DNA of 64,000 nucleotides from Mucor racemosus. Lineage: Eukaryota > Mucoromycota > Mucoromycetes > Mucorales > Mucoraceae. Both the position numbers and the translations under genes were made by a program. The DNA is taken from NCBI GenBank assembly GCA_027405735.1, contig JAPEHQ010000013.1:248001-312000 (forward strand). Direction: 5' to 3'. How positions within the stretch are numbered: the first letter of the stretch is position 1; every line of letters starts with the position of its first letter. Of this stretch, positions 3,042 to 35,379 are shown piece after piece. Under the pieces are notes generated by a model. It was not told the DNA's origin. It searched no databases and saw nothing but the letters and a program-made list of their open reading frames with translations.

Positions 3042-3051
3042 TCTTTTTATA
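3042..3051 (-). promoter_or_regulatory. TATA box of the oxidoreductase gene
   Basis: TATAAAAAGA on the minus strand lies 44-53 nt upstream of the ATG at 2998. The same decamer precedes the OPT transporter start at 58541, which supports a real core-promoter element. The rest of 2999-3362 shows nothing further. Confidence 0.5.
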
Positions 3052-3362
3052 CCTGAAATCGAATATTTATATTTTTAATCAGTAATAATATGCAACAGCA
3101 TGCACTAAACTAATTCAGGTTTCAGATCAATTATAACCGAGTTTTGCGTTATCTGATGAAATAACAGAAACTACCTAAGGTTCAAAGCATTGCTCACTTA
3201 CTTAATTTTATTTGAAGTATTAATGTAGCGTTGCATTAATTGGCTTGGGAACTTCAAATAACGCCTAGTGATTATTCGATAAATATTGATTTATTTATTT
3301 TTCTGTAAAAACTAGAGTAGTTTCATTAATTTACAACATTGCAAGCATTTTCATGGAATAGA

Positions 3363-3857
3363 TTAGGTATACGATGGAGGAGGAGCAGGAGAGGAGGGAG
3401 ATGCTATTACAGGCGCTGTAACACTGATAGTTCTTTTCAATCCATTGTAAGAAGCTATTTTTTTATGGCATGATGGACATGTATGTACAGTGTGCAGAAA
3501 CCATAGAGCTACACATATTGCTATCACAATGAAAACTGGCCATTGGTATTGTGTATTTTCAATAGAAAATAAATAAGTCATAACCAACATATAGATGCAA
3601 TAGAACCAATTTAAAGAAGATATTTCAGTATAGACATACTCAAAACAGTACGGGCATTGAATGAATGCAGATTGCCTTTTCAATTCGCTTAGTGGAATGA
3701 GTTGAGGTAATGGCATTAAAAGTTTAGTTTGGTGATGATGTACTGATGAGTGTTCTTCCATAAAAGTATTGTACTGGGATACATTGATACTCCTGGTATT
3801 AAAAGTAGGAAGAGCTCTACTCTGCTCGTCATTTGTAGAAGAGTTGTTATTTCCCAT
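3363..3857 (-). CDS. LITAF-domain membrane-associated protein, copy 1
   Basis: This intronless gene encodes 164 aa. The LITAF domain occupies about residues 65-140: a first zinc knuckle (IQCPYC), a hydrophobic segment of ~30 residues (WFYCIYMLVMTYLF and IVIAICVALWFL), and a second knuckle (HTCPSCHKK). In this family the hydrophobic part inserts into the cytosolic face of late endosomal/lysosomal membranes and the knuckles join to bind one zinc. The protein begins MGNNNS, which fits an N-myristoylation signal (MGxxxS). It ends PPPSYT, which contains a PPxY WW-binding motif of the kind LITAF proteins use to recruit NEDD4-type ubiquitin ligases; in animal LITAF this motif sits at the N-terminus. 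The next gene is a paralogue in the same orientation, about 220 bp away. Confidence 0.85.
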   Translation of the reverse strand: MGNNNSSTNDEQSRALPTFNTRSINVSQYNTFMEEHSSVHHHQTKLLMPLPQLIPLSELKRQSAFIQCPYCFEYVYTEISSLNWFYCIYMLVMTYLFSIENTQYQWPVFIVIAICVALWFLHTVHTCPSCHKKIASYNGLKRTISVTAPVIASPSSPAPPPSYT

Positions 3858-4077
3858 CAGGTTTTAGAAAACTGCTATAATACCAGATTTTGGTGGATAA
3901 ATGTAAAAGAGAAAAGAGGAAATGCTAAGCAGTTATATCCTTTAAACCCCTCTGTTTTCAAAACATTTACTCGTGTAACCTTTTTCTTACCTTGCCTGAT
4001 AACAAAATCAACACTTGCACATATGGTTCAATAACACAGAAAAACATCATAAAATTAGGAGTATTTTATTTGAATTA

Positions 4078-4536
4078 TTATGCGTTAGGAGGAGGAGGAG
4101 GAGGACTCATTGCTGGAGCCGTAACACCAACAACCTTTTCACTCTTATCAAATGTTGCAATTGCCTCTTTGCATGATGGACATTTGTGAAGAGTTTTATG
4201 TGAGAATGCAAAAAAATATATTAATAATGCAACCAAAACGTAGCAAGGTAAAGGCATACTAAATGGATAAAATGTGCCTGTGATGCCAAATATTGCTATG
4301 TAGCTGTAAATGTTATTACCGTCAGATATCTTTGTATACACATATTGAAGGCAATAGGGACATTGAATAAATGCAGATTGCGTGTTGAGTTCTGTTAATA
4401 AAACAGGTTGAGGCGAGGTAGAAGTTACATTGTGATGATTATGAATTTGATACTCTTTCTGAAATAGATTCTCGGTTGCAGCTAATTTTTGAATCGTACT
4501 GTTTTCTTGTTGTTCGTATCCTTGCGTATATTCCAT
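4078..4536 (-). CDS. LITAF-domain membrane-associated protein, copy 2
   Basis: This intronless gene encodes 152 aa. The architecture matches its downstream neighbour: a polar N-terminus, then LNTQSAFIQCPYC for the first zinc knuckle, a hydrophobic membrane-inserting stretch, and KCPSCKEAI for the second knuckle. It has a proline-rich tail (PPPPPPNA). Unlike copy 1 it lacks both the MGxxxS start and the PPxY tail; it begins MEYTQGYEQ instead. The shared block SAFIQCPYC and the identical order and orientation show a tandem duplication, while the diverged ends suggest different membrane targeting or partner binding. A role on endosomal membranes is inferred from the family. Confidence 0.83.
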   Translation of the reverse strand: MEYTQGYEQQENSTIQKLAATENLFQKEYQIHNHHNVTSTSPQPVLLTELNTQSAFIQCPYCLQYVYTKISDGNNIYSYIAIFGITGTFYPFSMPLPCYVLVALLIYFFAFSHKTLHKCPSCKEAIATFDKSEKVVGVTAPAMSPPPPPPNA

Positions 4537-6269
4537 GCTCTATATCTTGATATGTAAGTAATAAAGATGAAATAATGAGAATTACAATTGCTCAGATTAT
4601 TTTTGTGGTTTACGAAAATAGCTAAGCAAAATAATTAAGGTTAGTGTTATCAGTGTGTAACTTTGATACACATACAATATTCTATATGAACGTGAGTATA
4701 ATCTTTTTCATGTTGAGAAGCAGCTGAAATAACATATCAGAGTATGGTAAAAATCCTTTTTGGTCGCATCTAATTTGAGATACTGAAATTTTGATGCCTC
4801 GCAAATAATCTTCAAAAAACCAAGGCAAGAGATCCCATAGTTTGATCTTTGAGAACATAATTAAATTTGAGTTATGCTTACAACTTGAGAATGGAAATTG
4901 CATAGCTTATTCCTTGAAAAAACTGTTTATTTTTGACGTTTGTCGCATTGTAGTCCTACTAACTGATGAACACATGATTCAAAAGCTTGAAAAGTTTGAC
5001 AAAGTCTCCTTTAGGAGGACTCCGTTATTCTTGACACAAAACAAAGTTTCATGTATATACTCTTAAGAAGATATATTTGCTGCTATGCTGAACAGACATT
5101 TTTAAGGTCGCAAAATTAATATAATTGAAGAGAGAAATCAAGCAAATCTACTCTTCGAACTTCGTAACTGGTCAGCTTGCTCTAATGATTGAAAACGCCT
5201 GGTGAGATTCTTTTTTCATTCAGGATATCACAAGTTTTAAAAATGTTCTCAAATAAATTTATTTAGAGATGATTTACTCGTAAACAACGGAAATAAGGCT
5301 ACATAGCTATCTAGATAGTTTCGATTATGGTGACAAGAATAAGATGATATCTAACAAACTGTTGATGAAGAAGCCTCGTTGGGTTCTGAAAAGAATGAAA
5401 AAACATCTGTCACCACCAGATGAGGTATTTGTTAGTGTGAAGACTTTGTTTGACACTTAAGGAAATGCTCGCAACCATAATTCAGAAGAACCTTTGTTCA
5501 AAAGAAGGTGCAAGGAAGTAGCAGAAAATGTGCTCGATTCAATAAGGAGAAGTCGAGCGTTAGTTCCTGTTGGAGTAACATGAGATTACCACCTGTACAT
5601 TTATAAATTTAGTTTTCCTGTATACAGATGTACAAGAGATATAAATTCAATCCAAGGGGGGTGCTCACCAGAACACTGTCAGAAAACTTGCTTCTTTTAA
5701 TGCTACTTCAGAATTCAAGGATTGTGCTCTTGCTGACTATCGACTGTGGCACAACGTTCAGGTACCAAGACTTATTTATAAGGTAAATAACGTTGTTCTT
5801 AAAATTGTCTTAGTTTTTTTAAGATGAGCCCAAGAATAGATATGGTCATCATCCACAAATCTCACTTCTTCCCTAGGATTTATCAAGGAATAAACTAATG
5901 CAGAGGCTAATCGATACAGCCAATATTGAAGTCGTATTCTGATCAATTTGGTAATATATTTTACTTTGCGAACGCTGAGGAAACTTTCGGTATTAGTAGA
6001 TTGTCTCCGTCTTTGGTTTGCATTTAAGAAATGGATCTGCATGATAAACAGTATGCGAATACTGAAGGTTTCTCTCGTGATGTCAATGACAAGCTGAGCA
6101 TTTGTACAAATGCTTCAATCTCGGTAACATTCAAATGTAATTCTGTTTTGGAAATATGCAGTACAACTACGTATCATTCAAAAAAATTGTAAGTCTGACT
6201 ATAACTCCATAGCAAGTCAATGAAGAAGTAGAAGTTTATAAAAAGCTTCGAAAACATTCTATGCTTTTG
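4537..6269. other. Gene-free AT-rich stretch
   Basis: Only short open frames without recognisable domains occur (for example 4842-5066 and 5776-6042). No RNA gene or clear repeat was recognised. It separates the LITAF pair from the repeat-rich region. Confidence 0.5.
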
Positions 6270-7873: not shown

Positions 7874-10800
7874 TCAGACTTTTGGTCTATTGGGATGTTT
7901 AGTGTGGAACTTGTTAATTAACTCGCGACAGTGAGTAAGGTTTTCGACAGGTTCCCAAGTTCTATCCATGATTGAGTAGTTTTGCCAATGAACTAAATAT
8001 TGTAATTTCCTTTTGTGTATGCGTGAGTCTACTATATGTTCGACTTCGTATTCTTCGTGGTTATTGATTATTACAGGTGGCAATTCTTTTGGTTTGCGAC
8101 CTGGTATAGCATCTTCGATAAAACGCTCGAGCAGGTTAATATGAAATACGGGATGTATTTTCATTGTGTGAGGTAATTCGAGTTTGTAGCTCCTAGAACC
8201 GATTTTCTCTAGGATTTTGTAAGGTCCTAGTCGGCGATGATCTAGTTTTCCTGTTGGTCTTTGAGTTTTGATGTTTCTTGAAAGTAACCAAACTTTATCA
8301 CCAATTTTCAGTTCAGGTCCCGAGATTACTTTTCTGTTATAGAATTTAGCGTGGCTTTCTTGTGCTATAGCAATCTCAAATTGTAAGTTGCTATGTAAGT
8401 CCTTTATTAGCTGAGCGCGCTCTTCTGCCGGGGATCGGTCTTTTGTAGTCCTTGGAAGAGTTAACGAATATTGGGGTTCGTAACCATAATTTGCGAAGTG
8501 AGGAGTTACGCCAGTGGAGGTGTGTTTAGAGGAGTTATATGCAAACTGAGCCAGATGTAAAAGATTGCTCCAATTTGATTGTTGATAGTTGATATAACAA
8601 CGGAGGTATTGTTCTAAGATGGAATTGACTCGTTCTGTTTGACCATCGGTTTGTGGATGAAAGGCTGTTGACATGTTTTGTTCTACATTGAAGATTTTTA
8701 ATAATGCTCTTGTAAACTTTGATGTAAATGTAACACCACGATCTGAAACTATATTAGCTGGGAAGCCAAAATGACAAAAGACATGTCTTAAGAAAAGATC
8801 ACAGGTGCCTTCTGCATCGATAGTATTGTACGTTGGTATGAATATAGCCATTTTTGAATATCTGTCAACAAAGACACATATAGCAGTAAACTTTTCTGAT
8901 GGTGGTAATTGTGTAATAAAGTCTACTGATACGGATTCCCAAGGTTTTTCGGGAATTTGTAATGGTTGTAATAAGCCGTATGGCTTGTGGTGTGCATTCT
9001 TGTTTCGTAGGCAAGTATCGCAACCCATTACGTATTTTTTAACGTAAGCTCTTAATCCAGGCCAGTGGTAATCTCTGGCAACTTGATCGTACGTTTTCGT
9101 GATACCAAAATGTCCTGCAGCGGGGCTGTCATGACATTGTTCCAAGATTGTCTTCTTTAATTCTTGATTATCGGGAATGCAGATAGCTTGATTCTTGTAG
9201 AATAAAAGATTATCTTTGTAATGGTAATCGCTGGTATCTAGCTTCTTTTCGTTGTTTTGGATGTCTTTAAGTATTGGTCCGTAAGTTACATCTTTGGGTA
9301 GATGCTTAATTATTTCTTGCACTAGCTTATTGGATGCTTGATCTAAATTAACAGTAGTGTGAATGGAATTGATAAACAATTTTGGTGGTAAAAGAACCAT
9401 TGGAGTTGTGCCTTTACGGTAGTCACCCCCTCCCTCAAGAGGCCTATCTTTCCGAGATAGTGCATCGGCAGCAGCATTTTGTTTACCAGGGCGATAAACG
9501 ATATTGAAGTTGTAATCGCCAAGGATTTCGGACCATCGAACCTGGCGACGAGTGAGATTTCTAGTAGTAGTGAAGTATTCCAGATTTTTGTGATCTGTAA
9601 TAACCATTGTGGGTTCAGTGGAGAACTCAAGATATTGTCGCCAATGTTTGAAAGCATCGACTATAGCGAGGAGTTCTTTATCGTAGATTTGATAATTGAT
9701 TTCAGCAGGGAGTAATTTTCGGGAGTGGAACGCAATCGGATGAGCAATGCCCTGTAAATCTAGTTGACTGCAAACTGCGCCCAAGGCAAAATCAGAAGCG
9801 TCAGTTTCAATGATGCATGGAGCATCCGGGTTGTAGTGTTGTAGTATTGGATCAGCGGTGATACGCTTTTTTAGATCATTAAAGGTGTGTTCTGTTTGAG
9901 ATGTCCAAGCAAAGACGGCATCCTTTTTGAGCAGGGATGTGAGGGGAGTGCATAATTTCGAATAGTCTTGGATAAAACGTCGGTAGAAATTAGCAAGACC
10001 CAGAAAAACTTGGACATCATGAATACTCTTGGGAGTTGGCCATTCTGAGATGGATTTGATCTTTTCAGGATCCATGGAGATACCTTTGGGGCTAATAACA
10101 AAGCCCAGAAATTGTACCCTTGTCACATCAAATTCACATTTCTCGAGTTTAAGTGATAGTTTCGATTCTCGTAATCGTTGAAGCACTAATCTTACATGTT
10201 TAGTGTGTTCTTCTTGTGTTTGTGAGTATATTAAATAATCGTCTAAATACACCACAAGAAAAATATCAAGGAAATCGCGCATGACGTCATTAACAAAAGA
10301 TTGAAACGTCCCTGGGGCGGAGTTTAAACCGAAAGGCATGACGCGGTAATTAAAACTTCCGTACCTGCATCTCCAGGCAGTTTTCCATTCCTCACCAGAG
10401 GCGATGCGTACCAAATTGTACGCCCCACGCATATCTAGTTTGGTGTAACATGTAGCGTTGTGTAACCTGTCAAGGGTTTCCGAAATTAGCGGCAATGGGC
10501 AGCGATTTGGAATAGTTATTTTGTTTAAACCTCTATAATCTACACACATTCGTAAACTACCATCTTTCTTTTTGACAAAAAGTACTGGAGCACCAGCGGG
10601 TGAGTCGGATCTTACGATAAAACCCTTTTTAAGATTCTCTTGGATGTAGTCATATAACGTTTTCAATTCTACTTTTGAAAGGTTATATATTGGGCCAAAA
10701 GGGACCTCTGAATCTGGTTTTAGTGGAATAGTGTGATCGTATTGGCGATGAGGAGGTAGTTTATCTGCTTCGCTTTTAGAGAATACATCTTTGAAATCGT

Positions 10801-11785
10801 GATATTTATCAGGTAGTTTTGCAAGAATTTCTTTATCTTCTGCTAATTGATCCGCAATTGTGACTGTAGGAGATGTTTGTTTTTCCTCTGATTGATTATA
10901 GTCTTGATTATTGGAAACATTAGGGGAAGATATGTTGGAAATCACATTATTGTTGGAATTAATCTTACGACGTAGTTTCGTTGGATTCTTGATGGTTCTT
11001 GGAGGTAGCGTATTAACTTCAGTTAATATTACGTTTAGTGGGTGCATCTTTAAAGGAATCGAGTTATTAGGGTTGTTATCTAAAGGTTCAAGAGTTGGAT
11101 TTTCTTGATTAGCAAATGAATTAGATGGCAACCGTAATGAATTTTGGGTAGAATCTCTGTATAGAATCTTGTAGAGTTCGCGCTCTATCTCCAAGTTGGT
11201 TCTTCGAATGGTATCTAGGAACTTGTTAATGTTATTGTTGCATTTTTGTTCGAGCTCTCTTAATAAAGAGCATCGTTGGCGAATCAAACTCAGTAGGTTT
11301 TGTTCTATGACGTTTGAAATAGTGATATTTAAATTGCTCTTGTTTTTCTGAACAAATTTGGTGCTTGAATTGTTTTGATCCGATGCGTGGTTGTCGAGTA
11401 ATTCAGGTTTTTGTATTTGTCCGAAATTGCCAGGTCGGAGTTTGAACTTATCCAACTTAGGTGAAATTTGGAAATCCAAAAAAGGAAAGTCGTCGGTGAT
11501 TGGTTGAAAAAGTGGGGTGTAAAAGTTGCCTTTTTTGGAAATGTCGATCTTTTGATCGACCAGATTATCTTTGATCTTTCGAATCTGATATTCGTTATCA
11601 GGATCGACAAGATCAAGGTTACAAAGGTTCTTCAAACCTTTTACAGAAGTACGTAAGCAGGACAAGGTGGGATAATTTTTTGAATTTCTTCCACAAGTTT
11701 CTGTCGTGACATCACTTGAACTGGAATTGTCATCAACCCGTGGTAATATGAAAAAATCTTTTTTCGTTATCTTTTCTAGTTGCAA
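7874..11785 (-). CDS. pol: Chromovirus Pol: reverse transcriptase, RNase H, integrase, chromodomain
   Basis: The open frame covers about 1,300 codons. The order of domains is reverse transcriptase (catalytic YLDD near residue 515), RNase H (ETDASDF near 660), the integrase zinc-binding HHCC region (about 885-925, ending CDTC), the integrase DDE core (SVDF near 953, SDRG near 1016, and a glutamate near 1054), and a C-terminal chromodomain (about 1247-1290, VEHIVDSR then YLVHWQNYS and TWEPVENL). The frame has no ATG at its start: it opens in the -1 frame relative to gag and overlaps its last codons. It is therefore probably made as a gag-pol fusion by frameshifting in a G7A4 run. No protease is seen in this frame; it lies in ORF1. 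The chromodomain probably guides integration to heterochromatin. Confidence 0.93.
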   Translation of the reverse strand: MQLEKITKKDFFILPRVDDNSSSSDVTTETCGRNSKNYPTLSCLRTSVKGLKNLCNLDLVDPDNEYQIRKIKDNLVDQKIDISKKGNFYTPLFQPITDDFPFLDFQISPKLDKFKLRPGNFGQIQKPELLDNHASDQNNSSTKFVQKNKSNLNITISNVIEQNLLSLIRQRCSLLRELEQKCNNNINKFLDTIRRTNLEIERELYKILYRDSTQNSLRLPSNSFANQENPTLEPLDNNPNNSIPLKMHPLNVILTEVNTLPPRTIKNPTKLRRKINSNNNVISNISSPNVSNNQDYNQSEEKQTSPTVTIADQLAEDKEILAKLPDKYHDFKDVFSKSEADKLPPHRQYDHTIPLKPDSEVPFGPIYNLSKVELKTLYDYIQENLKKGFIVRSDSPAGAPVLFVKKKDGSLRMCVDYRGLNKITIPNRCPLPLISETLDRLHNATCYTKLDMRGAYNLVRIASGEEWKTAWRCRYGSFNYRVMPFGLNSAPGTFQSFVNDVMRDFLDIFLVVYLDDYLIYSQTQEEHTKHVRLVLQRLRESKLSLKLEKCEFDVTRVQFLGFVISPKGISMDPEKIKSISEWPTPKSIHDVQVFLGLANFYRRFIQDYSKLCTPLTSLLKKDAVFAWTSQTEHTFNDLKKRITADPILQHYNPDAPCIIETDASDFALGAVCSQLDLQGIAHPIAFHSRKLLPAEINYQIYDKELLAIVDAFKHWRQYLEFSTEPTMVITDHKNLEYFTTTRNLTRRQVRWSEILGDYNFNIVYRPGKQNAAADALSRKDRPLEGGGDYRKGTTPMVLLPPKLFINSIHTTVNLDQASNKLVQEIIKHLPKDVTYGPILKDIQNNEKKLDTSDYHYKDNLLFYKNQAICIPDNQELKKTILEQCHDSPAAGHFGITKTYDQVARDYHWPGLRAYVKKYVMGCDTCLRNKNAHHKPYGLLQPLQIPEKPWESVSVDFITQLPPSEKFTAICVFVDRYSKMAIFIPTYNTIDAEGTCDLFLRHVFCHFGFPANIVSDRGVTFTSKFTRALLKIFNVEQNMSTAFHPQTDGQTERVNSILEQYLRCYINYQQSNWSNLLHLAQFAYNSSKHTSTGVTPHFANYGYEPQYSLTLPRTTKDRSPAEERAQLIKDLHSNLQFEIAIAQESHAKFYNRKVISGPELKIGDKVWLLSRNIKTQRPTGKLDHRRLGPYKILEKIGSRSYKLELPHTMKIHPVFHINLLERFIEDAIPGRKPKELPPVIINNHEEYEVEHIVDSRIHKRKLQYLVHWQNYSIMDRTWEPVENLTHCRELINKFHTKHPNRPKV

Positions 11786-14613
11786 ATCTTTTCCCCCCCT
11801 TCAGAAAATATATTATTAATAAATTTGCTTTCTTCTATTTGGTTGTATTGAATATCAGATGTGGAAATACTTGGAAATGTCGACGAACACGCCTTGAAAT
11901 CAGTTTTATTAGAGGTTGGACGCGTTCGAGAATTTATTGTAGGGCTTTTCCTTGTTAATCCAATACAATTAATTTCTGATTGTGGAAAATCAAGTGGAAC
12001 AATTTTGTTTGAGTTAGTTTCTTTTAAGGTAAAAGAAGAATTGTCATTATGAATAGTAGACTTATGAATTGTTTTAGAGTGAAGATGAGAATTATTATTG
12101 TTTTGATCAATCGTTTTGTTAATTGAGTCAAGTTCAACATTGGAAATTAATGAGCAAGCAAATAGACAAGGCGAATAGTTGGTAAAATCATTATTATTAT
12201 TATTCGAATTATTCATATTATTGTGAGGAACAGTTAAGCTGTCATCATCATCATCGTCGTTATCAACTACATCTACAAAATTTCCAAATCCTTCACGAGG
12301 AAAACTAACAGCAGCAGGAATGATTAGTTCTTCCATTTGATCATCATCTTGAACTACTAAAGGTAAGGATACAGGAGTCAAAATATCATCTTGTTCAGGG
12401 AACATGTTGGGAGGTCCAACGAGCAGGGATATGACGCTCAAGGCGTCGCCAAAATTGTCTTGGTAATGTTCAAAGATTGGATTCATCCAGTTGTTGTCGA
12501 GAGGATCTGGAGTAATGTTGTTAATAGAATAATTGTTGATTAATAAATTTGGTAAAACTGTTTCCAGCTGTTCTGCGAGATATTGTTCAAAAGATTGTTG
12601 TTGCAATTGTTCGTCCCATTCTGGGATCCATTGTTCTATTTGATTGACGGTATCGCTCCAATTGGTATTATTGTTGGCTGTTGGTTCACCCCAACCGGTG
12701 GTAGTATTGGCGTCATTAAGAGGAGCAGGATGTTGAGGCACGGTAACCTGATTACAAAAATCTTCTTCATCCGAGGAGATTGTGATGGGAGAGGAAGCGG
12801 TAAAGGTGACAGGAGAACTATGGATGAGGGATACAGAAGTAGATGGTGTTGCGCTGGAAACGCGGAAAGGTCGTTTGCAAGAAGCAAAGCCCACGTCAAA
12901 ATCTACTGGCGTACAGGTGGTGGTGAGACATTTCATGTTGACCTTGTTGTCATGAAATGTAATGATAGGTTGATGTTTCTTCATCCATTCCATACCTAGA
13001 ATAACTGGGAAAGAGCAAGTTTCCAAAATACGAAAAATTGTTGTTTCTTCATGGTGGGTACCATTTAGTCTCATAGTGATGGCACAACAAGCCTTGCAAG
13101 TATAGGATGTACCATCGGCGAGTCGGTAAGTTGTACGGTCCTCCATAGGAAATTTTTCAATGGTTACTCCAAGGTAGTCGGCCCATTCTAGAGATACAAA
13201 ATTGTGGATCGCACCAGTATCGACGAGAGCGTCAGCACCGGTAGCATCTTCTTCATTGTCACCATGGTGGAGGGTAACAGGAAGGACGATTATAGAATCA
13301 CACTTGGATGTGGTCACCTTTTTTATCTCACCGATCTCTAAGGTTTCGAGTAAGTTAGTTACTCGTCTACGTTTTCCAGTGATGACAGAGTCATCGATGC
13401 TGCTGGAAATGGTGTGGTTGTCCCTTTCCACAATAAGAGATAAGACGTTGGAAGTAGTTTTCTTCTTGTTTGGACAGTTGTTGTTAAAATGCCCTTTTCC
13501 ACCACAGTAGAGACAGAGTTGATTATTCTTGCGGAAGTCCTTGACAGCCTGGGTCAAAGGCTTGTGCTGGTTGATTGCGCCTAATTCCATAGGGGTAGCA
13601 GTAGAGTTGTTGTTGGTTGAGTTCATGTTTGTAGAATTGGTTTTTGAATAAAGATAATTTGGACGAGAGTTGTAATTTTTATGCTGGTTTTTATAATTGT
13701 TTGAATGTTTTTGATTACCATTATTATTATTTGAATTTGGATGTTTCTGCACAGCATAAAATAAGTTGTCGATTTCAATTGAGGCAGACATTACTTCGTT
13801 AAGGGTTTTGCATTTAGGTCTTCTTGCAAGTTCCTTAATTATAAAATCCTTTAGATTTAATTTAAATTGGGAGATCAGGGCATCGTCGTTCCATTTTAAC
13901 AACATGGATAGACGTCTAAATTCAGTAGCATAAACAGAGACAGGACCGTTCTGTTTCAATGCTCGGATTGATGCTTCGGCATTGACGATTGGATTCGTAT
14001 CACCAAAAGCTTTAGTAATTGTTTCTTTGAATACTTTGAAGTTGGTTAAAATCTCAGGGGGATTTTCAGAATAGATATCTTGCAAGTACGGCTCCATGTA
14101 TGCAAATGCTACATTGGTCATATAGCTAATGGCATACAGTACCTTAGCTTGGTCTGATTCGAACCGAGCAGGGTTACTTGCAAATACCAGGATTAATTGG
14201 GAAAAGAAGGCATTACACTGGTTAGCTTTTCCAGAGAATGGATTGGGTTCCTTCACCTTCATCATGGGAGGAATATTTCGTGGAGTAGAGGTAGTAGCAA
14301 TATTTATGACAGGCGTGGCGTTAGCTTCTGCTACACGCTGCTCTTCGAGCAAGTTAGCCTTAAGTACTACATGGTTATCAATAAACTCTTGGATTTCTTC
14401 ACCCAAAGCTTTGATAGCCGTTTCAGCTTGGGAAAGTACATTGTTGATTTCACTATTAAGCTTTTCATGCAGATTATTTTCAACGAGACTTAGAGTATTG
14501 GAAAAGGTTTCCAACTGTGCAGGTATACTTTCCTGCAAGGCTTGAAATTGACTTAAAAAGTTATTTAAGAATTGGATCTGTTCTTCAGACAGATTGTTAT
14601 CAGATGAGAACAT
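11776..14613 (-). CDS. gag: Chromovirus Gag with zinc knuckle and retropepsin-like protease
   Basis: This frame encodes 945 aa from the ATG at 14613. An N-terminal capsid-like region is followed by an Asn-rich linker, a single CCHC zinc knuckle (CLYCGGKGHFNNNC, about residues 366-380) and a pepsin-like aspartic protease (DALVDTGAIHNF, active site near residue 463, with VILGMEWM downstream). A long, low-complexity Asn/Asp-rich tail of about 350 residues follows and is unusual in size. In many Ty3-type elements the protease begins pol; here it lies in the gag frame. The frame ends with TAG at 11778-11776, just after a run of seven G and four A where ribosomes could shift to the pol frame. Confidence 0.92.
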   Translation of the reverse strand: MFSSDNNLSEEQIQFLNNFLSQFQALQESIPAQLETFSNTLSLVENNLHEKLNSEINNVLSQAETAIKALGEEIQEFIDNHVVLKANLLEEQRVAEANATPVINIATTSTPRNIPPMMKVKEPNPFSGKANQCNAFFSQLILVFASNPARFESDQAKVLYAISYMTNVAFAYMEPYLQDIYSENPPEILTNFKVFKETITKAFGDTNPIVNAEASIRALKQNGPVSVYATEFRRLSMLLKWNDDALISQFKLNLKDFIIKELARRPKCKTLNEVMSASIEIDNLFYAVQKHPNSNNNNGNQKHSNNYKNQHKNYNSRPNYLYSKTNSTNMNSTNNNSTATPMELGAINQHKPLTQAVKDFRKNNQLCLYCGGKGHFNNNCPNKKKTTSNVLSLIVERDNHTISSSIDDSVITGKRRRVTNLLETLEIGEIKKVTTSKCDSIIVLPVTLHHGDNEEDATGADALVDTGAIHNFVSLEWADYLGVTIEKFPMEDRTTYRLADGTSYTCKACCAITMRLNGTHHEETTIFRILETCSFPVILGMEWMKKHQPIITFHDNKVNMKCLTTTCTPVDFDVGFASCKRPFRVSSATPSTSVSLIHSSPVTFTASSPITISSDEEDFCNQVTVPQHPAPLNDANTTTGWGEPTANNNTNWSDTVNQIEQWIPEWDEQLQQQSFEQYLAEQLETVLPNLLINNYSINNITPDPLDNNWMNPIFEHYQDNFGDALSVISLLVGPPNMFPEQDDILTPVSLPLVVQDDDQMEELIIPAAVSFPREGFGNFVDVVDNDDDDDDSLTVPHNNMNNSNNNNNDFTNYSPCLFACSLISNVELDSINKTIDQNNNNSHLHSKTIHKSTIHNDNSSFTLKETNSNKIVPLDFPQSEINCIGLTRKSPTINSRTRPTSNKTDFKACSSTFPSISTSDIQYNQIEESKFINNIFSEGGEKICN
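11789..11799 (-). promoter_or_regulatory. Putative -1 programmed frameshift site between gag and pol
   Basis: The minus strand reads GAAGGGGGGGAAAAGATTTG. In the gag frame the codons are GAA GGG GGG GAA AAG. The pol frame has a stop (TGA) immediately before this tract and no ATG after it, so the switch must happen inside the tract. It is not a textbook X-XXY-YYZ heptamer; slippage of the GGG codon by one base is the simplest route. Confidence 0.55.
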
Positions 14614-23398: not shown

Positions 23399-24610
23399 AT
23401 GAATGATGGCCATACAAACTCTGTAGCATCTTTAGGAATTAATACACAATTTAGTGGAAGTTCAGTATCCTCAGGTAGTTCGCCTTTAAATTCACCACTT
23501 GTTTCACCAGCAGCAAATTCTTTTACACACGAAAACTCTTCTTGGGACCAACTTCAAAACCAATTTACACAACAAATGTCGCTTCAACCACCTTCACCTG
23601 CTCCTCCTCCTGTAGCTGCCAAACCAGGTAGCGGGAATACCTTTGTACATAAATTATACAAGTAAGTATTTTTTTTCGCTAGCTTTATATGTAAATATCA
23701 ACGTTTCAAGCAAGCTAATTGTTTCAAATAAGCATGGTTGTCGATAAACAATATCAACATTTAATTGCTTGGACATATACAGGAACTTCTTTTATTGTCT
23801 GTAATATTACTGAATTTTCAAGAGATGTGTTGCCAAAGCATTTTAAACATAATAATTTTAGTAGTTTTGTTCGACAATTAAACATGTAAGATTTATTTGT
23901 TTGTATATGATTATATGCACAGAATCCCTTATTCTTGGAACAAAATAATATAGGTATGGTTTTCATAAGGTGAACAAATCGCCAAGAGGACACCGAACAC
24001 TAGCAGAAAATCAAATTTGGGAATTTTCACATCCTAAATTTCTGAGAAATCGACCTGATCTATTAGACGAAATCAAACGAAAAGCATTAGAATCAGAATC
24101 TGTTCGAAGAGATACAAATGATATTAGTTCGCACATGGCTATGATGCAGATGTCACAATCAGATATGATGCAACAAATATCACATTTACAAGAAAACTTA
24201 AATCAAGTCATGAATGAATTATCAGAAACAAAAAAGAGACAAAGTGTACAGCAACAAATGATGAAGGATATGATGGATTTTATGTCAAAACAATACGGCA
24301 CTTCATGTGAGTTCTTTTTAGTTGCTTAATTAGAATATATCTAACAATCATCTAGTTTCGAATATGGAAATGTTTGATATCAAATCAGACCCTGATAGAC
24401 CACCACCACCAATTTTCATTACTTCAGCCGATAATAGTCAACAACAACAACAGCAACAACAACAGCCCAATTTTTACTTGAATATAAATGACCAACCTCC
24501 TTCAACACCTAATTCTCCATTATCTACCGCCTCTTCTCCAAGAATGTCCCATCCTAATATTAACAACAATAATAATCACCCACAATTATCTGTACAAACT
24601 CAAAATCTTC

Positions 24611-24650
<40 letters not shown>

Positions 24651-25008
24651 GCAACAATTAGGCCTACATCGATTTCCTACACAACATCAAAGATCTCCAT
24701 CTTTAACGCCTACTTATCAACAGGCCGTTAACACTCCTTTACCGCCGAGTCCATGCCCAAGCCCTGGGCATTTCTTAGATGATGATGCTGCAAACCAATC
24801 CATGTATAATGCCAGAAATCCAATGCTGGCATCAGGTTCTTATATAATGGATCCTCAACAGCAGCAACAGCAACATCAGCAACAGCAACATCAGCAACAG
24901 CAACAGCAACAACAACAGCAACAACAACAACAACAGCAGCAGCAACAGCAACAGCAACAACAGCAACAGCAACAACACTATAACAACAACAATGCTCACT
25001 CCTTTTAG
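23399..25008 (+). CDS. Heat-shock-factor-type transcription factor with polyglutamine tail
   Basis: There are four exons: 23399-23661, 23733-23885, 23954-24306 and 24356-25008. The introns are 71, 68 and 49 nt with GT...AG ends, and the product is 473 aa. Residues ~81-178 form the HSF DNA-binding domain (FVHKLY at the exon 1 end, [18 protein letters not shown], then VRQLNMYGFHKV across the second intron). A Met/Gln-rich coiled coil follows (about 200-255, [20 protein letters not shown]), where HSFs trimerise. The C-terminal ~215 residues are Ser/Pro/Asn-rich with three polyglutamine tracts. It is a nuclear regulator, binding nGAAn repeats if it is a true HSF. There is no response-regulator domain, so it is not Skn7; Hsf1- or Sfl1-like remain possible. 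An exon upstream of 23399 cannot be excluded. Confidence 0.9.
24850..24975 (+). repeat. CAG/CAA trinucleotide tract encoding polyglutamine
   Basis: This is a long mixed CAG/CAA run at the 3' end of the HSF coding sequence. Shorter runs lie at about 24439-24466 and 24610-24657. Mixed codons suggest selection for the peptide rather than simple DNA expansion alone. Confidence 0.85.
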
Positions 25009-27686: not shown

Positions 27687-29562
27687 ATGCTTTATTGGCC
27701 GAAACTGTTGATAACAGCTTTTGCAATAACCAATACATTGGAATCATTCATACCTTTATATCTTGTAAATCAGTTACAATTAACTGCTTTGCAAGCTTCT
27801 TTTCTTATAACCCTTGTTTATTTATTAAGATTATTCTCTGGTATATGGACTTCTATTGTTGATCACCGACCTCATATTTATGGATTCATCATATCGTTAT
27901 TAACAACTACATCATCAATTGCATTCATCATACTATTGTCATTGTCATCACCGATATATGCAAGTTTGGATCATATTTGGATTTGGACAATTTTAATCAT
28001 TTGCACTATTTGTAATGGAATATTTTATCAGCCATTGGGAACATTGATTGATAGTGCCATCATTAAAACTCTGGGAGATTACAGAGTACTATTTTATGGT
28101 AAATAAGGAGCTTTATCAATATGTTTTTGTTACCAGTGACGTGCATAATCACACAATCCCCCTTTCATTTATTATATATATATATATATAGGGTCATATG
28201 TGCGATGGAGCAAGACGACTACTATCATCATGACTGGAGGCATCGGTTTACTTATCAGTATGATGGCGGAAGATAGATACCTAGATATTATCCTTATTGG
28301 TGTTTATATGATTGGAATGGTATTATTGCTAGTAATTGCACTCGTATTTACAAATGTAGAGCCTGCCAATGCATCCCAATTAGATATAAGTGAAGAACAA
28401 GCTCCACTTTTATTAAAAAATGCACTTTATCTTACAGCTGATCAAAATAATCTTGTTACTTATCGACCATATAGTATATTTGGGGAACAACTTTCACACA
28501 TTTCCGAAGAAGATGCAAGTCAGTTGGATCGTTTGTTTACAAGGGAAGATTCATTGAGACCGATGGATAGCTATGACAGTAATGCTCCTTCATTTTATAG
28601 TAGATATAGCTACATGTCGGGTAGTGTTGTTGCTGCGGGTCAAGAAGAGAATGCAAATCATTTATCCATGACGCTTGTACCTACTGTACCCGCCAATGCG
28701 TTAGCTTTATTACCATTACCCACACCTACTGATCCTTTAATCGCTTTCTTTGCTTGTATGAGGTCAAATCAAGAAAATACCGACGATGAACTTGTAGGCA
28801 GTTATTATTATGGACAACAACAATCACAAAACCAAAAAGTCAATCAATGGAAAACACAGACTTTATCAGTTACAATGTTATTGTTGGGAATTTCTAATGC
28901 TCTTTTGAACACATTTTTATTTGTATATGTTTATTCTTTTATGGAAATGTCGATGTATATTATTTCTTGTTTGATAATGATTCATATGACCTGTGAAATG
29001 ATTGTTGCTTATATTATTGAAAAGGTTTGTATTCTAAAATCAAGTGATATTTTTGGTGTATATAATATAAAAATTTATTGATATATATATACTATAGTGG
29101 TTTATTCATAGGTTAAATTTGACTTTAATCACAACATCTGTACATATCACTTTGATTATTTGCGCCATCTTGTATCCATGTATGAAACCCGATAGTGTCG
29201 CAACACGTGTTTCATTATTGGTATTACAAGCTTTGCAAGGTATGCATTTGATTTTTGTATTTACGTGTATAAAATTAATCCATGGTTTCATTATTATTAT
29301 AGCTATCGCTTTTCAACTTATATGGCTTAGTGGTGCTGATCAGGTCAATTTAATTCATTGGAGTCAAAATGAAAGAATGAGGCAAAGATCAAAAATTTCA
29401 GCTCTTTATAGTAGTATTGGCCCTGCGATAGGTGTCATGATTGCTGGTTATATCTTGCAATCAGATCAAAGTATGGAAGATTATACCCTCATCTTCAAGT
29501 ACTGTGTCGCTTTATCCTCTTTAAGCTTCGTTGTTTCTTGGGGTTGGACTTCAGATGAGTAA
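27687..29562 (+). CDS. Major facilitator superfamily transporter (MFS_1-like / LacY-like)
   Basis: The predicted exons are 27687-28098, 28192-29024, 29098-29239 and 29303-29562 (introns 93, 73 and 63 nt), giving 548 aa. The N-terminal half has six hydrophobic segments beginning at LLITAFAITNTLESFIPLYL, with an MFS-type SIVDHRPHIYG loop between segments 2 and 3. A long polar central loop (about residues 190-330) follows, then a second hydrophobic half (LSVTMLLLGISNALLNTFLF onward). It is probably a plasma-membrane or vacuolar transporter of unknown substrate. The second splice acceptor was chosen at 29097 because only that keeps the frame (EKWFIHRLNLTL). The third intron is a multiple of three with no stop, so its removal is predicted from splice sites and from the hydrophobic pattern. 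Confidence 0.82.
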
Positions 29563-29826
29563 ATCCTTGTATATTAACACTCTCAAACACATTTAAATAT
29601 ATATATATATCTTTCTTTCTTTCTTTCTTTCTTTTACATAGTACCATGTTATATTTCATATTAAAATCCTTCTTTTATATCCTCTTTCTTTTCTATGAAC
29701 TTTTAATTGCGGTATTTTTGCTATGCAGGGTTGCAGTTCAATGCGTCAATAAATTTAATTTATAGTTACATGATTTTGCAGCAAGAAATCCAAGTTAAAG
29801 AAGAGGATTTCCAGACGATTTTCTGT
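29563..29826. other. Short intergenic region with microsatellites
   Basis: A (AT)n run and a (TTTC)n run follow the MFS stop codon. Nothing else is recognised before the Fanzor unit begins. Confidence 0.5.
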
Positions 29827-29832
29827 CGAAAA

Positions 29833-29854
29833 CTTGAATCTTGCGAGTATAATA
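29833..29854 (+). repeat. Left terminal inverted repeat of the Fanzor unit
   Basis: The 22-bp sequence starts CTTGAATCTTGCGAG. It matches the inverted sequence at 34192-34213 at 21 of 22 positions, and also the end of the derivative at 1174-1374. Confidence 0.8.
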
Positions 29855-29919
29855 ATTACCATATTAGTAAATGCTATACAGCTTAGCCAATTTTTACTAC
29901 AACTTACCAGATTCAAGCC
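29833..29919 (-). ncRNA. Candidate guide-RNA (omega-RNA) scaffold at the 3' end of the Fanzor unit
   Basis: On the minus strand the stop-codon region reads GGCTTGAATCTGG (29919-29907) and the terminal repeat, some 60 nt later, reads CGCAAGATTCAAG. CTTGAATCT pairs perfectly with AGATTCAAG, closing a stem-loop that ends exactly at the transposon boundary. TnpB and Fanzor guide RNAs characteristically come from the element end, with the guide taken from flanking sequence. The downstream ~62 bp are conserved in the derivative at 1174-1374 although the nuclease gene is lost. Position and structure are seen; the RNA itself is an inference. Confidence 0.35.
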
Positions 29920-32900
29920 TCCGCTGATGCAGCACCGCTGCCGTCCCCATGCTCGTTTCTTGAACAGAAAGCGTTGGTCTTGGTGAAAATACCAGTATAG
30001 GATTGACTGGGTTTAGGATTGAACACTGGTAATGACTCATTAAAAATTAAATTAGAAAGGCCAGATACAGCAATAGCCAAAGCGGATGTTTTGTCTCTTG
30101 ATTGAATTGGCTTGTGAGATCTGACAGAAATACATCTTGGATTAAGGCACCAAAAAGCACCATTTACTGTCTTTTTTGCTGATTTATCTTTACTAGTTCT
30201 TTTGGGATATGTGAGTGGACCAAAACAAAACATACAAGTTTGGGATGTCTTGTGTTCATTTGTAAAATGGATAGCAGAAGAAACAGCATGCAGTTTTGGC
30301 TTCCATTTACCTCCGTATTTTAGATGGCCTTTCAGCTTCGAACCAACACCAGTGCCTCTATCCCCAATAAACATTATAAGGGACGTTTGTGGATGTCTAC
30401 CAACACAAAAAGATCTTTCTTTGGAGGCAGCACCGGAGCGAAATCTTTTGTCATTGCATTCAGTACTTCTTGTTAAATTAGCCATTTTCTTTGAATAGTA
30501 GAATGCACGGAGCGTTTTGATATCTTCCTTACGATTAACCAATCTGCTCTGAATTTCATCAACATCCTTTGATAAATATACACTAGATTTGGACAGTTTG
30601 GTTTCAATCATCTTTACTTGTCTGCCTTCTGTGCTTTGTTTGTCTTTTTCCATCAGCTTCCTCTTTCTGAATTGACCAGAGCCGAAATCAATATCTTCGG
30701 CATACATCTTATACGATTCTGGAAGGGTCTGGAAAACGTCAGATGCTGCATCAAGATCATCGTTGTCATTATCAGAAGCAAGAGGAGAGTATTTGTTATG
30801 CAGATTTAAGCAGTATTTATACTTGTTAATGTCAACAGCAACTGTTTCAGTCATAACTTTGAGACCATTGTCTGTTCCTGAGAATATCAAATTTCCAAGG
30901 GACTCTTCGTTATGAATTTCTTCAGTCCTTGCAATAATTGGTATATTCTTATTGCGATACTGAATGGCTTTTCTTGAATAATATTGTTGACTCCTAAGAT
31001 CAGCAAGCTGTTGCTTCGTCGCTTGTAGAGCACTAAAAGCATTGAATCTATCTGCTTTCAATTTTTGGATTTCCTGATATTTACTATGATCATTCTTCCA
31101 TTGAATTTTTAAATCTTTGATTCTTGTAGAAAAATCGTCTCGTCTGAATTGTCTGCTGTGCTCTTTTAATAGTGCAGAAACATTCTGAATCTGTTGTCCT
31201 ATATCAGCAATGTCAGATTTCAATTCTTGATTGCTTCTCGACTGTAAATCTTTGACAGTGTCCCAATCAATGTCGATCAAGTTTGCGTTGGTGTTTGTGT
31301 TGGTAGCTTGGTCTTTGATAGGTCTATTTCCTAAGATTCTTGCAGATTTAAGTCCAGGTGAAATTATCACATTATGAGCAAAAGTTAATTTATATGATTT
31401 ACAAGCATTATTAATAGCACGAATGTCGAAAAAAGAGTTGAATACTGCATCTTTGTAGGTACGTGCTTTAACAACTGAGTCAATGACATAACCTTGAAAG
31501 TCGAAAATGGTCATCTGATCGCCTTCATTCTTCTGACTGCATAAAGCATAAATTGATGGAGCATCTAATCGTAAAGCACTCAAAGATGCATGGGAGGATG
31601 TGGGGCACAAGTCCATTACGAATTTATTATATCCAACTGATTGAAGCACATCATTAGCTAACAATAAGAATGGAAGTTGAAATCCAATATGACCATAATT
31701 TTCTTTGTTTGGTATATATGGAAGCAATGTGTTTGATAACATTAAACATACTGCAGTTTCAGCAGGAGTAATATCTGGAACCTCCTCTTTAAAATGATTA
31801 TCGGTAATAGTCTCATCATAATGGTTAAACATGAGGTCTTTTATAACAGCTTTCAGTGTTAAAATTCGTCGTCTTGTTACATCACGATCATCTGATTCCG
31901 CTTCCTCCATTTCTTCCTCCTCCAGAACTTCATTAAATGGGATGATTTCTTCGATCGGGACAATATTATCATTGGAGGCTGACCCAAATTCTTCTTGAAG
32001 AGGTTTATCACGATCAGGGCGTCTGAAACTTTGATGCATATTGTTGATTCGCTGTTGGCTTTTTTCAGCTAATACAAACCACTTGTTATCTTCTCCTTTA
32101 CCTTGAGCCTTTCTCTGATACTTTTTCAATTTGTGCTTCTCTGATCGAATGGCGTTGTGGAACGAATTTCGAGAAGGCTTTGAAACATCATCTTTTTCAT
32201 GATCTTCTTTTGACTTTGATTCAATGTAATCCTGATATTTTTTCTCGCGTTTGGGAGCAAGATGTATCCGGAGGAGGATTTCAATCACCTTATTCAATAT
32301 CTTATTGAATAACTTGTTACCAGACCACATATTCTTCAAGTTGACTTTATATAGGTTCAAAGCTACCTGCATCAATTCATTAGCAGATCGAGGAGTTTCC
32401 TGAGAAAATGACGATATCAACGGATGATTGCTTTCGGCCAAAGCATGAAATATAGGATTTGTGCTTTTTGATCCCTTTTTTCCATATAATGTAACATGGA
32501 GGTAGTCGATGTGTTGACTTTGGAAGAGTTGCTTCAAGTTTTTGCAGAAGAACTCAGACTTGACAGCGTCTGATGACAATGGAGGAGCAGAAAATTTGGT
32601 GTCAGATTTCATTCGAAAGTCTGATGGAAGGATATTTTCAATTGGGAAACCTTGGCACTTGTTATATTCTACATCTCCATTTTGAGCAACCACGAATTGC
32701 GATGATTTCATAGAGAGCATCAATGTGAAAACGACCAGTTGGATATCCATGAGATAATCAGATACATTATATAATGCAGAATTTACTTTGCGTAGAAATG
32801 CTTCAGCAATCTGTGGATTTACATCTTTTCGTAATATGCTTTTAAATGATACTGTACAGGTACGATATTCCATGCTTTCTTCTTCTTTTTCAATGGAAAT

Positions 32901-33500
32901 GTCTGACATTTCGGTTGGAGCACCAGAGATTGAAGATACTTCAGATACTACATCCATTGCAGAGAGCTCTCGACGAAGAGAAGGGATGAGGCTAGAAGAT
33001 TCAGCTTGAAATGGTTGCTGTAATGTTTTTTCTGAAGAACTTGATGGTTCTGATGAAAAAGATAATACAATGTTGTCAAAATTTTCTTTCACATAGTCTT
33101 GCCAATGTACAAAGTTTCGCTTAAGAGTATGGTGTTCAAGATAATCGCTTAATTCACCTTGATTACAGTTACATATTTTCTCAGCATTGCTAAGGATTCC
33201 AGGAGGGAGCCTCTTCGCTTCAGACATCGTTTTCTTTAATTCTATCAGCTTTTTATCTTTACCAATAATAGGTTTAACCTTATTTGTAATATTATCACGC
33301 ATAGATTGATAGAAGCTATCCATCAGTCTCTGAGAAGAAACTCCAGACGTCCTTAGCCGTTTTATTATGGGAGCTGCAGTGGATGATGATGATGTATGTT
33401 CTCTTTTCTTTCCACTTGAAGTGTTCCATTGAGGCGGGTAACTAGTTTGAGTGCCATCAAAAGCATCTCTCTGTTCTTTCTTCTTACGGATGCTGGACAT
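29913..33500 (-). CDS. Fanzor-type (TnpB-related) RNA-guided RuvC nuclease
   Basis: This single intact exon encodes 1,195 aa from the ATG at 33500. The C-terminal third carries a TnpB/Fanzor core: RuvC-I SGTDNGLKVMTE with catalytic Asp877; a MFIGDRGTG strand (Asp1047) followed by GSKLKGHLKYGGKW; NEHKTSQTC with Glu1082 just before the zinc ribbon (Cys1089, Cys1092, Cys1118, Cys1123); and RuvC-III SRDKTSALAIA with Asp1136. The ~870-residue N-terminal region is long, polar and contains predicted coiled coil (about residues 760-850). Basic clusters near the start may serve nuclear import. Known Fanzors use a transposon-end RNA to cut DNA. All key residues are present, so the enzyme may be active. 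Which acidic residue is the second catalytic one is not certain. No intron is visible, consistent with mobile-element origin. Confidence 0.85.
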   Translation of the reverse strand: MSSIRKKKEQRDAFDGTQTSYPPQWNTSSGKKREHTSSSSTAAPIIKRLRTSGVSSQRLMDSFYQSMRDNITNKVKPIIGKDKKLIELKKTMSEAKRLPPGILSNAEKICNCNQGELSDYLEHHTLKRNFVHWQDYVKENFDNIVLSFSSEPSSSSEKTLQQPFQAESSSLIPSLRRELSAMDVVSEVSSISGAPTEMSDISIEKEEESMEYRTCTVSFKSILRKDVNPQIAEAFLRKVNSALYNVSDYLMDIQLVVFTLMLSMKSSQFVVAQNGDVEYNKCQGFPIENILPSDFRMKSDTKFSAPPLSSDAVKSEFFCKNLKQLFQSQHIDYLHVTLYGKKGSKSTNPIFHALAESNHPLISSFSQETPRSANELMQVALNLYKVNLKNMWSGNKLFNKILNKVIEILLRIHLAPKREKKYQDYIESKSKEDHEKDDVSKPSRNSFHNAIRSEKHKLKKYQRKAQGKGEDNKWFVLAEKSQQRINNMHQSFRRPDRDKPLQEEFGSASNDNIVPIEEIIPFNEVLEEEEMEEAESDDRDVTRRRILTLKAVIKDLMFNHYDETITDNHFKEEVPDITPAETAVCLMLSNTLLPYIPNKENYGHIGFQLPFLLLANDVLQSVGYNKFVMDLCPTSSHASLSALRLDAPSIYALCSQKNEGDQMTIFDFQGYVIDSVVKARTYKDAVFNSFFDIRAINNACKSYKLTFAHNVIISPGLKSARILGNRPIKDQATNTNTNANLIDIDWDTVKDLQSRSNQELKSDIADIGQQIQNVSALLKEHSRQFRRDDFSTRIKDLKIQWKNDHSKYQEIQKLKADRFNAFSALQATKQQLADLRSQQYYSRKAIQYRNKNIPIIARTEEIHNEESLGNLIFSGTDNGLKVMTETVAVDINKYKYCLNLHNKYSPLASDNDNDDLDAASDVFQTLPESYKMYAEDIDFGSGQFRKRKLMEKDKQSTEGRQVKMIETKLSKSSVYLSKDVDEIQSRLVNRKEDIKTLRAFYYSKKMANLTRSTECNDKRFRSGAASKERSFCVGRHPQTSLIMFIGDRGTGVGSKLKGHLKYGGKWKPKLHAVSSAIHFTNEHKTSQTCMFCFGPLTYPKRTSKDKSAKKTVNGAFWCLNPRCISVRSHKPIQSRDKTSALAIAVSGLSNLIFNESLPVFNPKPSQSYTGIFTKTNAFCSRNEHGDGSGAASAEA

Positions 33501-34191
33501 TTAGCTTAAATTATAATCGAGCAAATGTTAGTTCTCGTATGTTAAAACCGAACACTACTTGTGTCATACATACTCGTAATACTTGTATATCCTGATTGTA
33601 TATGTTTTTATTAATGTATTTGTGAAAAAGTGGTAAATAGGATCAGAAAGAGAGAGAGAAAAGAAAAAGAAAAGGCGTAATAAACGTTTGATGTACAATA
33701 TCTATGGGGCTATATCCTGAGCTCAATTAATATATCATAAATGATTTCATATTCTATATGCCATTTTAGCAGCCAGTTGAAATACATTACATTCTGTATG
33801 CTGACTTGACGATGTATGTAGGTCAATTCAGCCTGGATTATAAAGAAGATACGTACAATACTGAATATGAATAATGAAGAAATTCAAGCCGACTACAATA
33901 CAAATTTCTTGTACTATCTCACTTTGATTATATTCTATACTGGCATTACTTCAATATGCACAATAAATTTATATCAATGATCCGAACACTACAGTAGTAT
34001 ACTTGATTGAGCAAATTACATAAATTGAAAGTGAGTTTAAGAACAATTATCTGTGTTAAATTAAATTTATCTATATTATAAATGTTATCAATTGAGTTAA
34101 AAATAATAATATAGTAGATCCATGTAGGAGCTATGGCATGCTAACATTGGATTGTCATATGAATTGTCCTGTAAGTTTAGTGTGTAAAATA
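33501..34191. other. Upstream non-coding end of the Fanzor unit
   Basis: About 690 bp lie between the nuclease start and the right terminal repeat and presumably hold its promoter. A subterminal block of about 119 bp (34031-34149) is nearly identical to 1174-1298. The rest (33501-34030) is AT-rich without recognisable content. Confidence 0.6.
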
Positions 34192-34213
34192 TATTATACT
34201 TGCAAGATTCAAG
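34192..34213 (-). repeat. Right terminal inverted repeat of the Fanzor unit
   Basis: In outward-to-inward orientation it reads CTTGAATCTTGCAAGTATAA, differing at one position from the left repeat at 29833-29854. Confidence 0.8.
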
Positions 34214-35379
34214 GCTTGCTTTTCTGTGCCGTCGACGTTTGAATTGTAAAAAATGCAACTGCAACATTTCAGGATCAGTTCGACATTTTAAAAAAAATTG
34301 GACATTATTAGACATTTGAGGGATTTTTACGACCATTTTTTGATAGTAATACTTCAAAGTTGCGATAATTGAATATACGTAATTAAAAGTGCTCTATATT
34401 ATGGAATTTTAATTTTACAAGTTTTTGGCACAAAATTTAAAAATATCTTTATAAAAGCCCAATTTTAGTTTTTTTGAGATATCTCAAATTTTTTGGCACA
34501 TAAGCTCAAAATAAACTTTACTGCTTGAAAAAGATGATTATTCCAGATATTTAGTTCTAATAAATAGCTTAGTAAAAAGCCTCATTTTTCGGCTCAAAAA
34601 TTGAAATTTGTGAAATCTGAGATTTTGGATGAGCAATGGTAAGGCAAAAATCGAGACGAAAAAAAGGTCAGAAAAAAATCACCAAAATGCTTCAGATCAA
34701 CTCTATTAAAAGGCAGCATTCGTTTGGTAAGCTTTTGAGCGCTGGAAGTGGCCTCAAACTATCGAAATATAGGATTATAGTGCTGATATAGGCCATTATT
34801 GCTTAATTAACGACATTACTTGCATTGACAGAATCCAATATTTAGTAGATTGAGTAAAATAAAATACGTATATAATCTTGACATCCTACAAGTACAACTG
34901 AGAGTGTTTTCACATAATTTTTCGGCTTGCAAAAATAAATGAAAATCCTTTAAAGTCTCACATTTGATGTCAAACTCTATAGCAGCTCGAAGGACATTAT
35001 TACTGGAGATGTTGCGTTTATTCTATGTTGTTATAGTAAATTAGAGTACTTTCCGGTTCTTCTTTTTGCTGACAATGATAAGTTTAAATAAAATACACAA
35101 GAGCATCCTTTGTGATGCTTCAAGAGCAACCAAAAGCAAACAGGGCATACGTCACACCCCCGCAGACAGTATGCGGTGTTCAAACGATTGACCCCTCCTT
35201 CCATCTCAAATGTAGACAGGAAACCTATCTAGCTTCACACAAATAATAAAAAAAGTAAAAGTTGGCTTTTTTTTTTGCTTATTTATATCCATTACATTAA
35301 GCGGTAAAATAAAAATAACAAAGAAATTCATACCAAAATCGATCAATCTCTAACCATCATTATAGTTTGTAAATAAAAA
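34214..35379. other. Intergenic region upstream of the Mic60 gene
   Basis: No gene was recognised in these 1.17 kb. The sequence is AT-rich with several poly(A)/poly(T) runs; the Mic60 promoter must lie near its right end but no clear TATA box is seen. Confidence 0.5.

Follow-up and report, generated by a model that had tools for sequence, protein, structure and literature searches.

The stretch of Mucor racemosus DNA analysed here (the window: 64,000 nucleotides, positions 248,001 to 312,000 of contig JAPEHQ010000013.1 in GenBank assembly GCA_027405735.1) carries a 4.39-kb transposon whose sole gene encodes a likely Fanzor1 nuclease. In the model that we favour on balance, this nuclease would cut under the direction of an RNA taken from the element's 3' end and the adjoining flank. 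An earlier note, made from the letters alone, had placed an uninterrupted gene of 1,195 codons at 29913..33500 without giving its strand. The open reading frame (ORF) is indeed intact and is read on the minus strand; what the note did not report is that it sits in a transposon of 4,393 bp, which is bounded by inverted repeats of 22 bp and flanked by target duplications of 8-10 bp.

29827..34219, minus strand: whole element, 4,393 bp, with the ends common to the near-full copies
34192..34213, minus strand: 22-bp terminal inverted repeat at the 5' end, differing from its 3' counterpart at one position in this copy, with GCAAGC outside it at 34214-34219
29833..29854, minus strand: 3' terminal inverted repeat, 22 bp, with TTTTCG outside it at 29827-29832
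29913..33500, minus strand: Fanzor-like ORF, 1195 amino acids (aa) in a single exon, ATG at 33500 and stop at 29913

The element begins GCAAGC-CTTGAATCTTGCRAGTATAATA... and finishes ...TATTATACTCGCAAGATTCAAG-TTTTCG, the 3' end being identical throughout and the 5' end shared by 7/11 copies. Its own genome (53.2 Mb in 54 contigs) holds ten full-length copies of the protein, the window copy and nine others at 95-98% aa identity, while an eleventh near-full copy, on contig C2, is frameshifted; the ORF is intact in eight of the 11 near-full copies. At the DNA level the window copy is 96.8-98.9% identical to the ten others, with 94.2% over 531 bp of L005. The 11 copies show purifying selection (pN/pS 0.33 over 55 pairs), and this, together with the recurrence of the full-length protein at nine other genomic places, shows that the 1195-codon frame is not a product of chance. 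Internally deleted derivatives (L013, L018, L034, L035 and L037) keep both ends, or nearly so, and a non-coding family of about 670 bp has the same repeat and the last ~278 bp of the element (72-77% for L039-L050).

That the protein is a likely Fanzor1-class nuclease is a prediction from fold and motifs rather than from cleavage. The catalytic features lie as follows.

30870..30872, minus strand: codon of RuvC-I Asp877, D in 19/19 alignment rows and 11/11 genomic copies
30255..30257, minus strand: codon of Glu1082, the relocated RuvC-II glutamate (E-x6-CxxC), E in 12/12 rows reaching the column and 11/11 copies
30132..30236, minus strand: zinc ribbon from Cys1089 to Cys1123, from sequence and alignment
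30093..30095, minus strand: codon of RuvC-III Asp1136, D in 12/12 rows reaching the column

The structure prediction that the earlier note had called for supports the TnpB/Fanzor core proposed there. When the Protein Data Bank (PDB) was searched by fold with the predicted model, all five matches at E<=0.001 were Fanzor1 proteins; the Fanzor-like predicted fold spans residues 209-1163 and has the WED/REC, RuvC and NUC parts of Fanzor1, and most of the remaining high rows in the structural tables are Cas12 or TnpB. The RuvC half is modelled better (mean pLDDT 71, pTM 0.45) than the full-length chain. At the residue level, the motifs are where the note had put them: SGTDNGL at 874-880 with D877, TSQTC and the four cysteines at 1089, 1092, 1118 and 1123, and SRDKT with D1136. 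Three homologue searches of a set of 5.8 billion proteins, each limited to the ~8,000 candidates that ranked highest by shared words, returned 17 homologues, the named ones from Mucor, Halteromyces and Thamnidium. In an alignment of 19 rows the RuvC D-E-D is conserved, and the zinc ribbon that lies between E1082 and the RuvC-III D1136 keeps its cysteines wherever a row reaches the column (C1089 and C1092 in 13/13, C1118 and C1123 in 12/12); the first pair but not the stretch preceding it is present in row P0011, and the second pair is C-x4-C, not C-x2-C. D877, E1082, D1136 and the four cysteines are also invariant in all 11 genomic copies.

The second catalytic acid had been left unnamed, and the best candidate, judging from the alignment, is E1082. 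A glutamate relocated to a position adjoining the zinc ribbon (E_alt, E-x6-CxxC) is described as a mark of Fanzors that is shared only by one narrow TnpB clade (PMC10711439). E1082 has just this setting: the window protein reads EHKTSQTCMFC, and E-x6-CxxC occurs in 12/19 alignment rows, the other seven being without that stretch. On the strand where TnpB has its RuvC-II glutamate, the window protein has IGD, with D1047 in 13/13 rows.

Target choice by the element is sharp and one-sided, as is seen from the junctions.

34220..34227, minus strand: left (5') copy of the target-site duplication ACAGAAAA, from junction comparison
29819..29826, minus strand: right (3') copy of the target-site duplication ACAGAAAA, from junction comparison
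34233..34243, minus strand: target motif TTCAAACGTCG, 5 bp left of the duplication; consensus TTYAANNNCCG, with TCG for CCG in the window copy

We scored 19 copies with both junctions, comprising 11 full or near-full copies, six deleted derivatives and two members of the short family; excluded were nine copies with the 5' junction only, the duplicate L055, L046 (which shares the site of L003) and the short elements L040, L044, L047 and L049, which have no recognisable duplication. Nearly all of these 19 insertions have TTYAANNNCCG 5 bp to the left of the duplication, in a single orientation. Relative to the first base of the duplication, positions -8 to -6 hold CCG in 16/19, CAG in 2/19 and TCG in one, the window copy; position -12 is always A and position -6 always G (19/19 each), and T is found at -16 in 16/19 and at -15 in 18/19. 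Elsewhere in the 35-bp left flanks CCG appears once at any other offset, and the 19 right flanks hold no comparable motif, no offset there having CGG or CCG more than once. Of the nine copies scored at the 5' junction alone, most also have CCG or CAG where it would be expected, judged by eye only. Because the motif is fixed on the left and absent on the right, insertion is directional, in the order motif, 5 bp, duplication and element from 5' to 3'.

The duplications are 8 bp long in five copies, 9 bp in 11 and 10 bp in three, where those of L009, L034 and L061 have one or two mismatches and lengths set by hand, and that of L006 allows a reading of either 9 or 10. Where the element's 3' end is joined, the distance to the motif is constant; the variation in length belongs to the 5' junction. 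Several copies lack 5' bases despite an intact duplication (about 14 in L003, about 10 in L005 and 37-39 in L007) and have an exact 3' end, and in L006 the 5' repeat is shortened beside an intact duplication. The ends of these four look as if the 3' end had been joined first. L003 (C5:920290-926874) is itself a tandem of two elements, one from each of two related families, at one target, whose 9-bp duplication CTGAATAAC is present in three copies. Within the window, 1170-1374 is a deleted, 5'-shortened relative of the Fanzor element, and it too has CCG upstream of its left end.

Known Fanzor RNAs arise at the right end of their element and extend into the flank (PMC10432273, PMC10711439), and the corresponding part of the window element is the candidate for such an RNA.

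29827..30005, minus strand: candidate guide-RNA (omega RNA) stretch, the last 30 codons and the 3' untranslated region; suggestive only

In this element a near-copy of the 3' repeat lies at the stop codon, and the two can pair; the consensus drawn from the alignment of the stretch contains three stems. Compared with the majority sequence of the short family, third-position changes make up 29/53 in codons 1113-1165 and 8/30 in the last 30 codons (Fisher p 0.021, the boundary having been chosen by us); the former show a coding-like third-position excess that is absent from the last 30 codons, as expected if an RNA constrains them. Among 11 aligned short elements conservation per block is 0.79-0.89 in the 3' half versus 0.51-0.81 in the 5' half, whose start is rich in insertions and deletions. 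An Rfam scan of 29500-34500 gave no match. The sequence evidence for a guide RNA is suggestive, and the RNA should be read as a prediction. A side observation may concern it: C19:930500-931750 (about 150-1400 of L094) is the relic of a conventional Fanzor, with a match to PF07282 and a different 24-bp terminal repeat, and just inside its 3' end lie 19 bases, TATTATACTCGCAAGATTC, that match the window element's 3' repeat without a difference. As far as the letters allow one to say, TATTATACTCGCAAGATTC is possibly a guide-RNA part shared by the two.

We propose a model with the following predicted steps. The element would be moved by a transposase supplied in trans, and it would be this enzyme that chooses the motif. 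The predicted guide RNA would start in the 3' end of the element and run into flanking DNA. After the element has left a site, the nuclease, guided by the flank-carrying RNA, would cut the empty site or the sister chromosome, and repair of the cut would copy the element back. This is the published copy-back model for TnpB, which we extend to a Fanzor. Non-coding relatives that keep the 3' end would be further possible sources of guides.

A number of observations weigh against this proposal. A match to a Fanzor or OrfB profile was not obtained: Pfam and NCBIfam gave nothing above cut-off for the window protein, whether Fanzor or any other family (Pfam had sub-cut-off matches only), and the PDB sequence and profile searches returned no Fanzor. 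The published Fanzor/TnpB spacing pattern (PMC10711439) is matched by 0/19 rows, those with the whole region having longer spacings and the remaining rows being too short; this pattern is a filter for mining, not a definition. Some Cas12 rows rank between Fanzors in the structural table, and the full-length model is weak (mean pLDDT 58, pTM 0.34). On the side of the RNA, the single-strand fold of the 3' end is ordinary (z -1.00, with 33/200 shuffles as good), double changes occur in only 6/24 paired positions of the alignment, and the 11 copies show no third-position depletion in the last 30 codons (p 0.54). The motif, moreover, is 5 bp from the predicted start of the guide-matched target. A transposon-adjacent motif directly before the guide was not found, the information content being <=0.56 bit at positions -5 to -1 and <=0.53 bit within the duplication; in the Fanzor screens of PMC10432273, by contrast, motifs adjoin the target. 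Since Pfam, NCBIfam and PDB sequence searches find no Fanzor, the protein is to be regarded as a divergent variant, and with about twice the length that is usual for a Fanzor it is a double-size one.

Another issue is which enzyme moves the element. The Fanzor-like ORF is its only gene, and no transposase is encoded. Across the whole genome the pattern of the 22-bp repeat has 89 matches and a reversed control pattern none, and 13 stretches around unassigned matches are mostly short non-coding family copies. Long frames near repeat matches were scanned in only two cases, of which L083 is an MFS transporter and L084 gave nothing above cut-off. Five matches were outside this reading (C2:993654, C3:604807, C3:604919, C8:2081075 and C22:314658), and those at C12:138204/138844, C20:1001641/1002217 and C23:637196 are known by position alone as relatives of the short family. 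The profiles PF10551 (MULE) and PF00872 (Transposase_mut) have no match in this genome and do match in other genomes; PF21056 matched no genome scanned and is uninformative here. A place among hAT or IS1595/Merlin elements was considered and finds no support, none of the 70 hAT and eight IS1595-type matches in the genome being within 5 kb of the 89 repeat matches. Separately, many of the 70 hAT dimerisation-domain matches are of equal score and frame length, which suggests several recently active hAT families.

It is conceivable, if improbable, that no second enzyme is needed and that the Fanzor-like protein integrates the element itself, binding TTYAANNNCCG and cutting the strands 5 and 13-15 bp further on, so as to yield the 8-10-bp duplication. 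A double-size Fanzor that reads the motif, makes a staggered cut and joins the 3' end first would be a directional, site-specific transposase, a conclusion to which we give little credence. It would fit the presence of a single gene in the element, with no other gene recognised beside the same inverted repeat in the stretches read. It would equally fit a motif that is long, one-sided and always 5', on the side away from the 3' (guide-RNA) end, which is also the geometry of TnpB, and a 3' junction that is fixed beside a variable 5' one (among the 11 copies, L003, L005 and L007 without their first bases and L006 shortened). However, we know of no Fanzor or TnpB that integrates DNA, and an unrecognised transposase may exist elsewhere in the genome.

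A second Fanzor-like family in the same genome also speaks against self-integration. Its protein is 31% identical, and its gene is split by presumed introns (L015, at 587-5197 of the locus on C7, L020 and L063-L080). It occurs at 23 places with 95-100% identity over the last 298 bp, and two members compared over 4.5 kb are 97.7% identical. The 5' end reads AA|CAGTA and continues into a palindrome whose length varies (a long hairpin), and the 3' end reads CTCAGTA|; ten copies read at both ends show no target duplication, and two loci that were scanned show no terminal inverted repeat. Related proteins thus go with different end chemistry, and finding two related proteins in elements with two types of end speaks for a nuclease that travels as a passenger, with other enzymes moving it, and against its being the transposase.

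The protein could alternatively be derived from a Fanzor that has lost its nuclease or guide function and now serves as a DNA-binding accessory of the transposon, which we regard as unlikely. The very long N-terminal part, GD1047 in place of Glu on the canonical RuvC-II strand, the failure of PDB sequence and profile searches to match any active Fanzor and the ordinary single-strand fold of the element's 3' end, where the guide RNA is predicted, would all agree with such a role. Against it, E1082 sits where Fanzors keep their glutamate, and the three acids and four cysteines are invariant in all rows reaching them and in 11/11 copies. Less probable again is another RuvC or RNase H-like family, such as a DDE transposase, with a look-alike zinc ribbon: the missing OrfB or Fanzor profile match and the weak full-length model leave room for it, but the fold matches at E<=0.001 are Fanzors without exception, and Cas12 and TnpB make up most of the other high structural rows. 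A domesticated host gene, as might be supposed of an intact ORF flanked by genes for mitofilin and G6PD on the opposite strand, is refuted by ten near-identical copies elsewhere, each with its own duplication, and has almost no claim on our belief.

PpFz1 of Parasitella parasitica is a Fanzor1 of a mucoralean fungus. Its structures (PDB 9cf1, 9cf0) match the predicted fold with E 1.4e-4, and a sequence profile search with the window protein did not find it. Its chain has 726 residues with a ~100-aa RuvC insert of its own (PMC11423790), as compared with 1195 aa here. SPu-1/SpuFz1 from Spizellomyces punctatus (PDB 8gkh, 9cey) resembles our case in predicted fold, in being an inverted-repeat element and in having non-coding 'ghost loci' (PMC10432273), where it is also reported that no transposase was found in its genome. 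SpuFz1 has no similarity to the window protein by sequence profile, and SPu-1-1p differs in having 633 aa and putative TA duplications (PMC3627910), versus 1195 aa and 8-10 bp. TnpB proteins of IS200/IS605 and TnpB-only insertion sequence (IS) elements are likewise smaller, at 400-500 aa (PMC10432273), and TnpB elements are described as having neither inverted repeats nor target duplications (PMC3627910), unlike the window element.

Far closer are MCi-4, ROr-4 and PBl-3 (Bao & Jurka 2013, PMC3627910), described as elements that have MuDR-like repeats and duplications of 9 bp but encode no MuDR transposase. They share with the window element a Fanzor-type protein, inverted repeats, ~9-bp duplications, the lack of a MuDR transposase and mucoralean hosts, and the 22-bp repeats, 8-10-bp duplications and absence of a transposase gene put it with the MCi-4 kind. 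What the window holds, then, is a large and divergent gene of Fanzor1 type, carried by an element that lacks a transposase and is of an already published kind. Mucor circinelloides alone has ten Fanzor1 families (PMC3627910), and one family of that paper may be the same as ours, the families being compared by main-text description only. Neither a one-sided target motif nor a large divergent protein family was found in the available text of PMC3627910 or in titles and abstracts of the Fanzor literature (in Mucorales, TnpB, transposase, MITE, Mutator-like and guide-RNA contexts).

The biological role of Fanzors is unknown, according to the Discussion of PMC10432273. With 11 near-identical copies (eight intact), clean ends, a sharp one-sided motif and non-coding relatives, the say of a Fanzor in where its element lies becomes directly testable, and the fixed distance to the motif would give a first handle on site choice by such enzymes and elements. 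As every sequence profile tried missed the protein, sequence surveys could miss the family.

Two other features of the window were noted. At 7874-14613 there is a Ty3-type retroelement with a gag/protease ORF and a pol ORF (reverse transcriptase, RNase H, integrase and chromodomain), both open, as identified with Pfam, and an ORF with long CAA/CAG repeats lies at 24364-25008.

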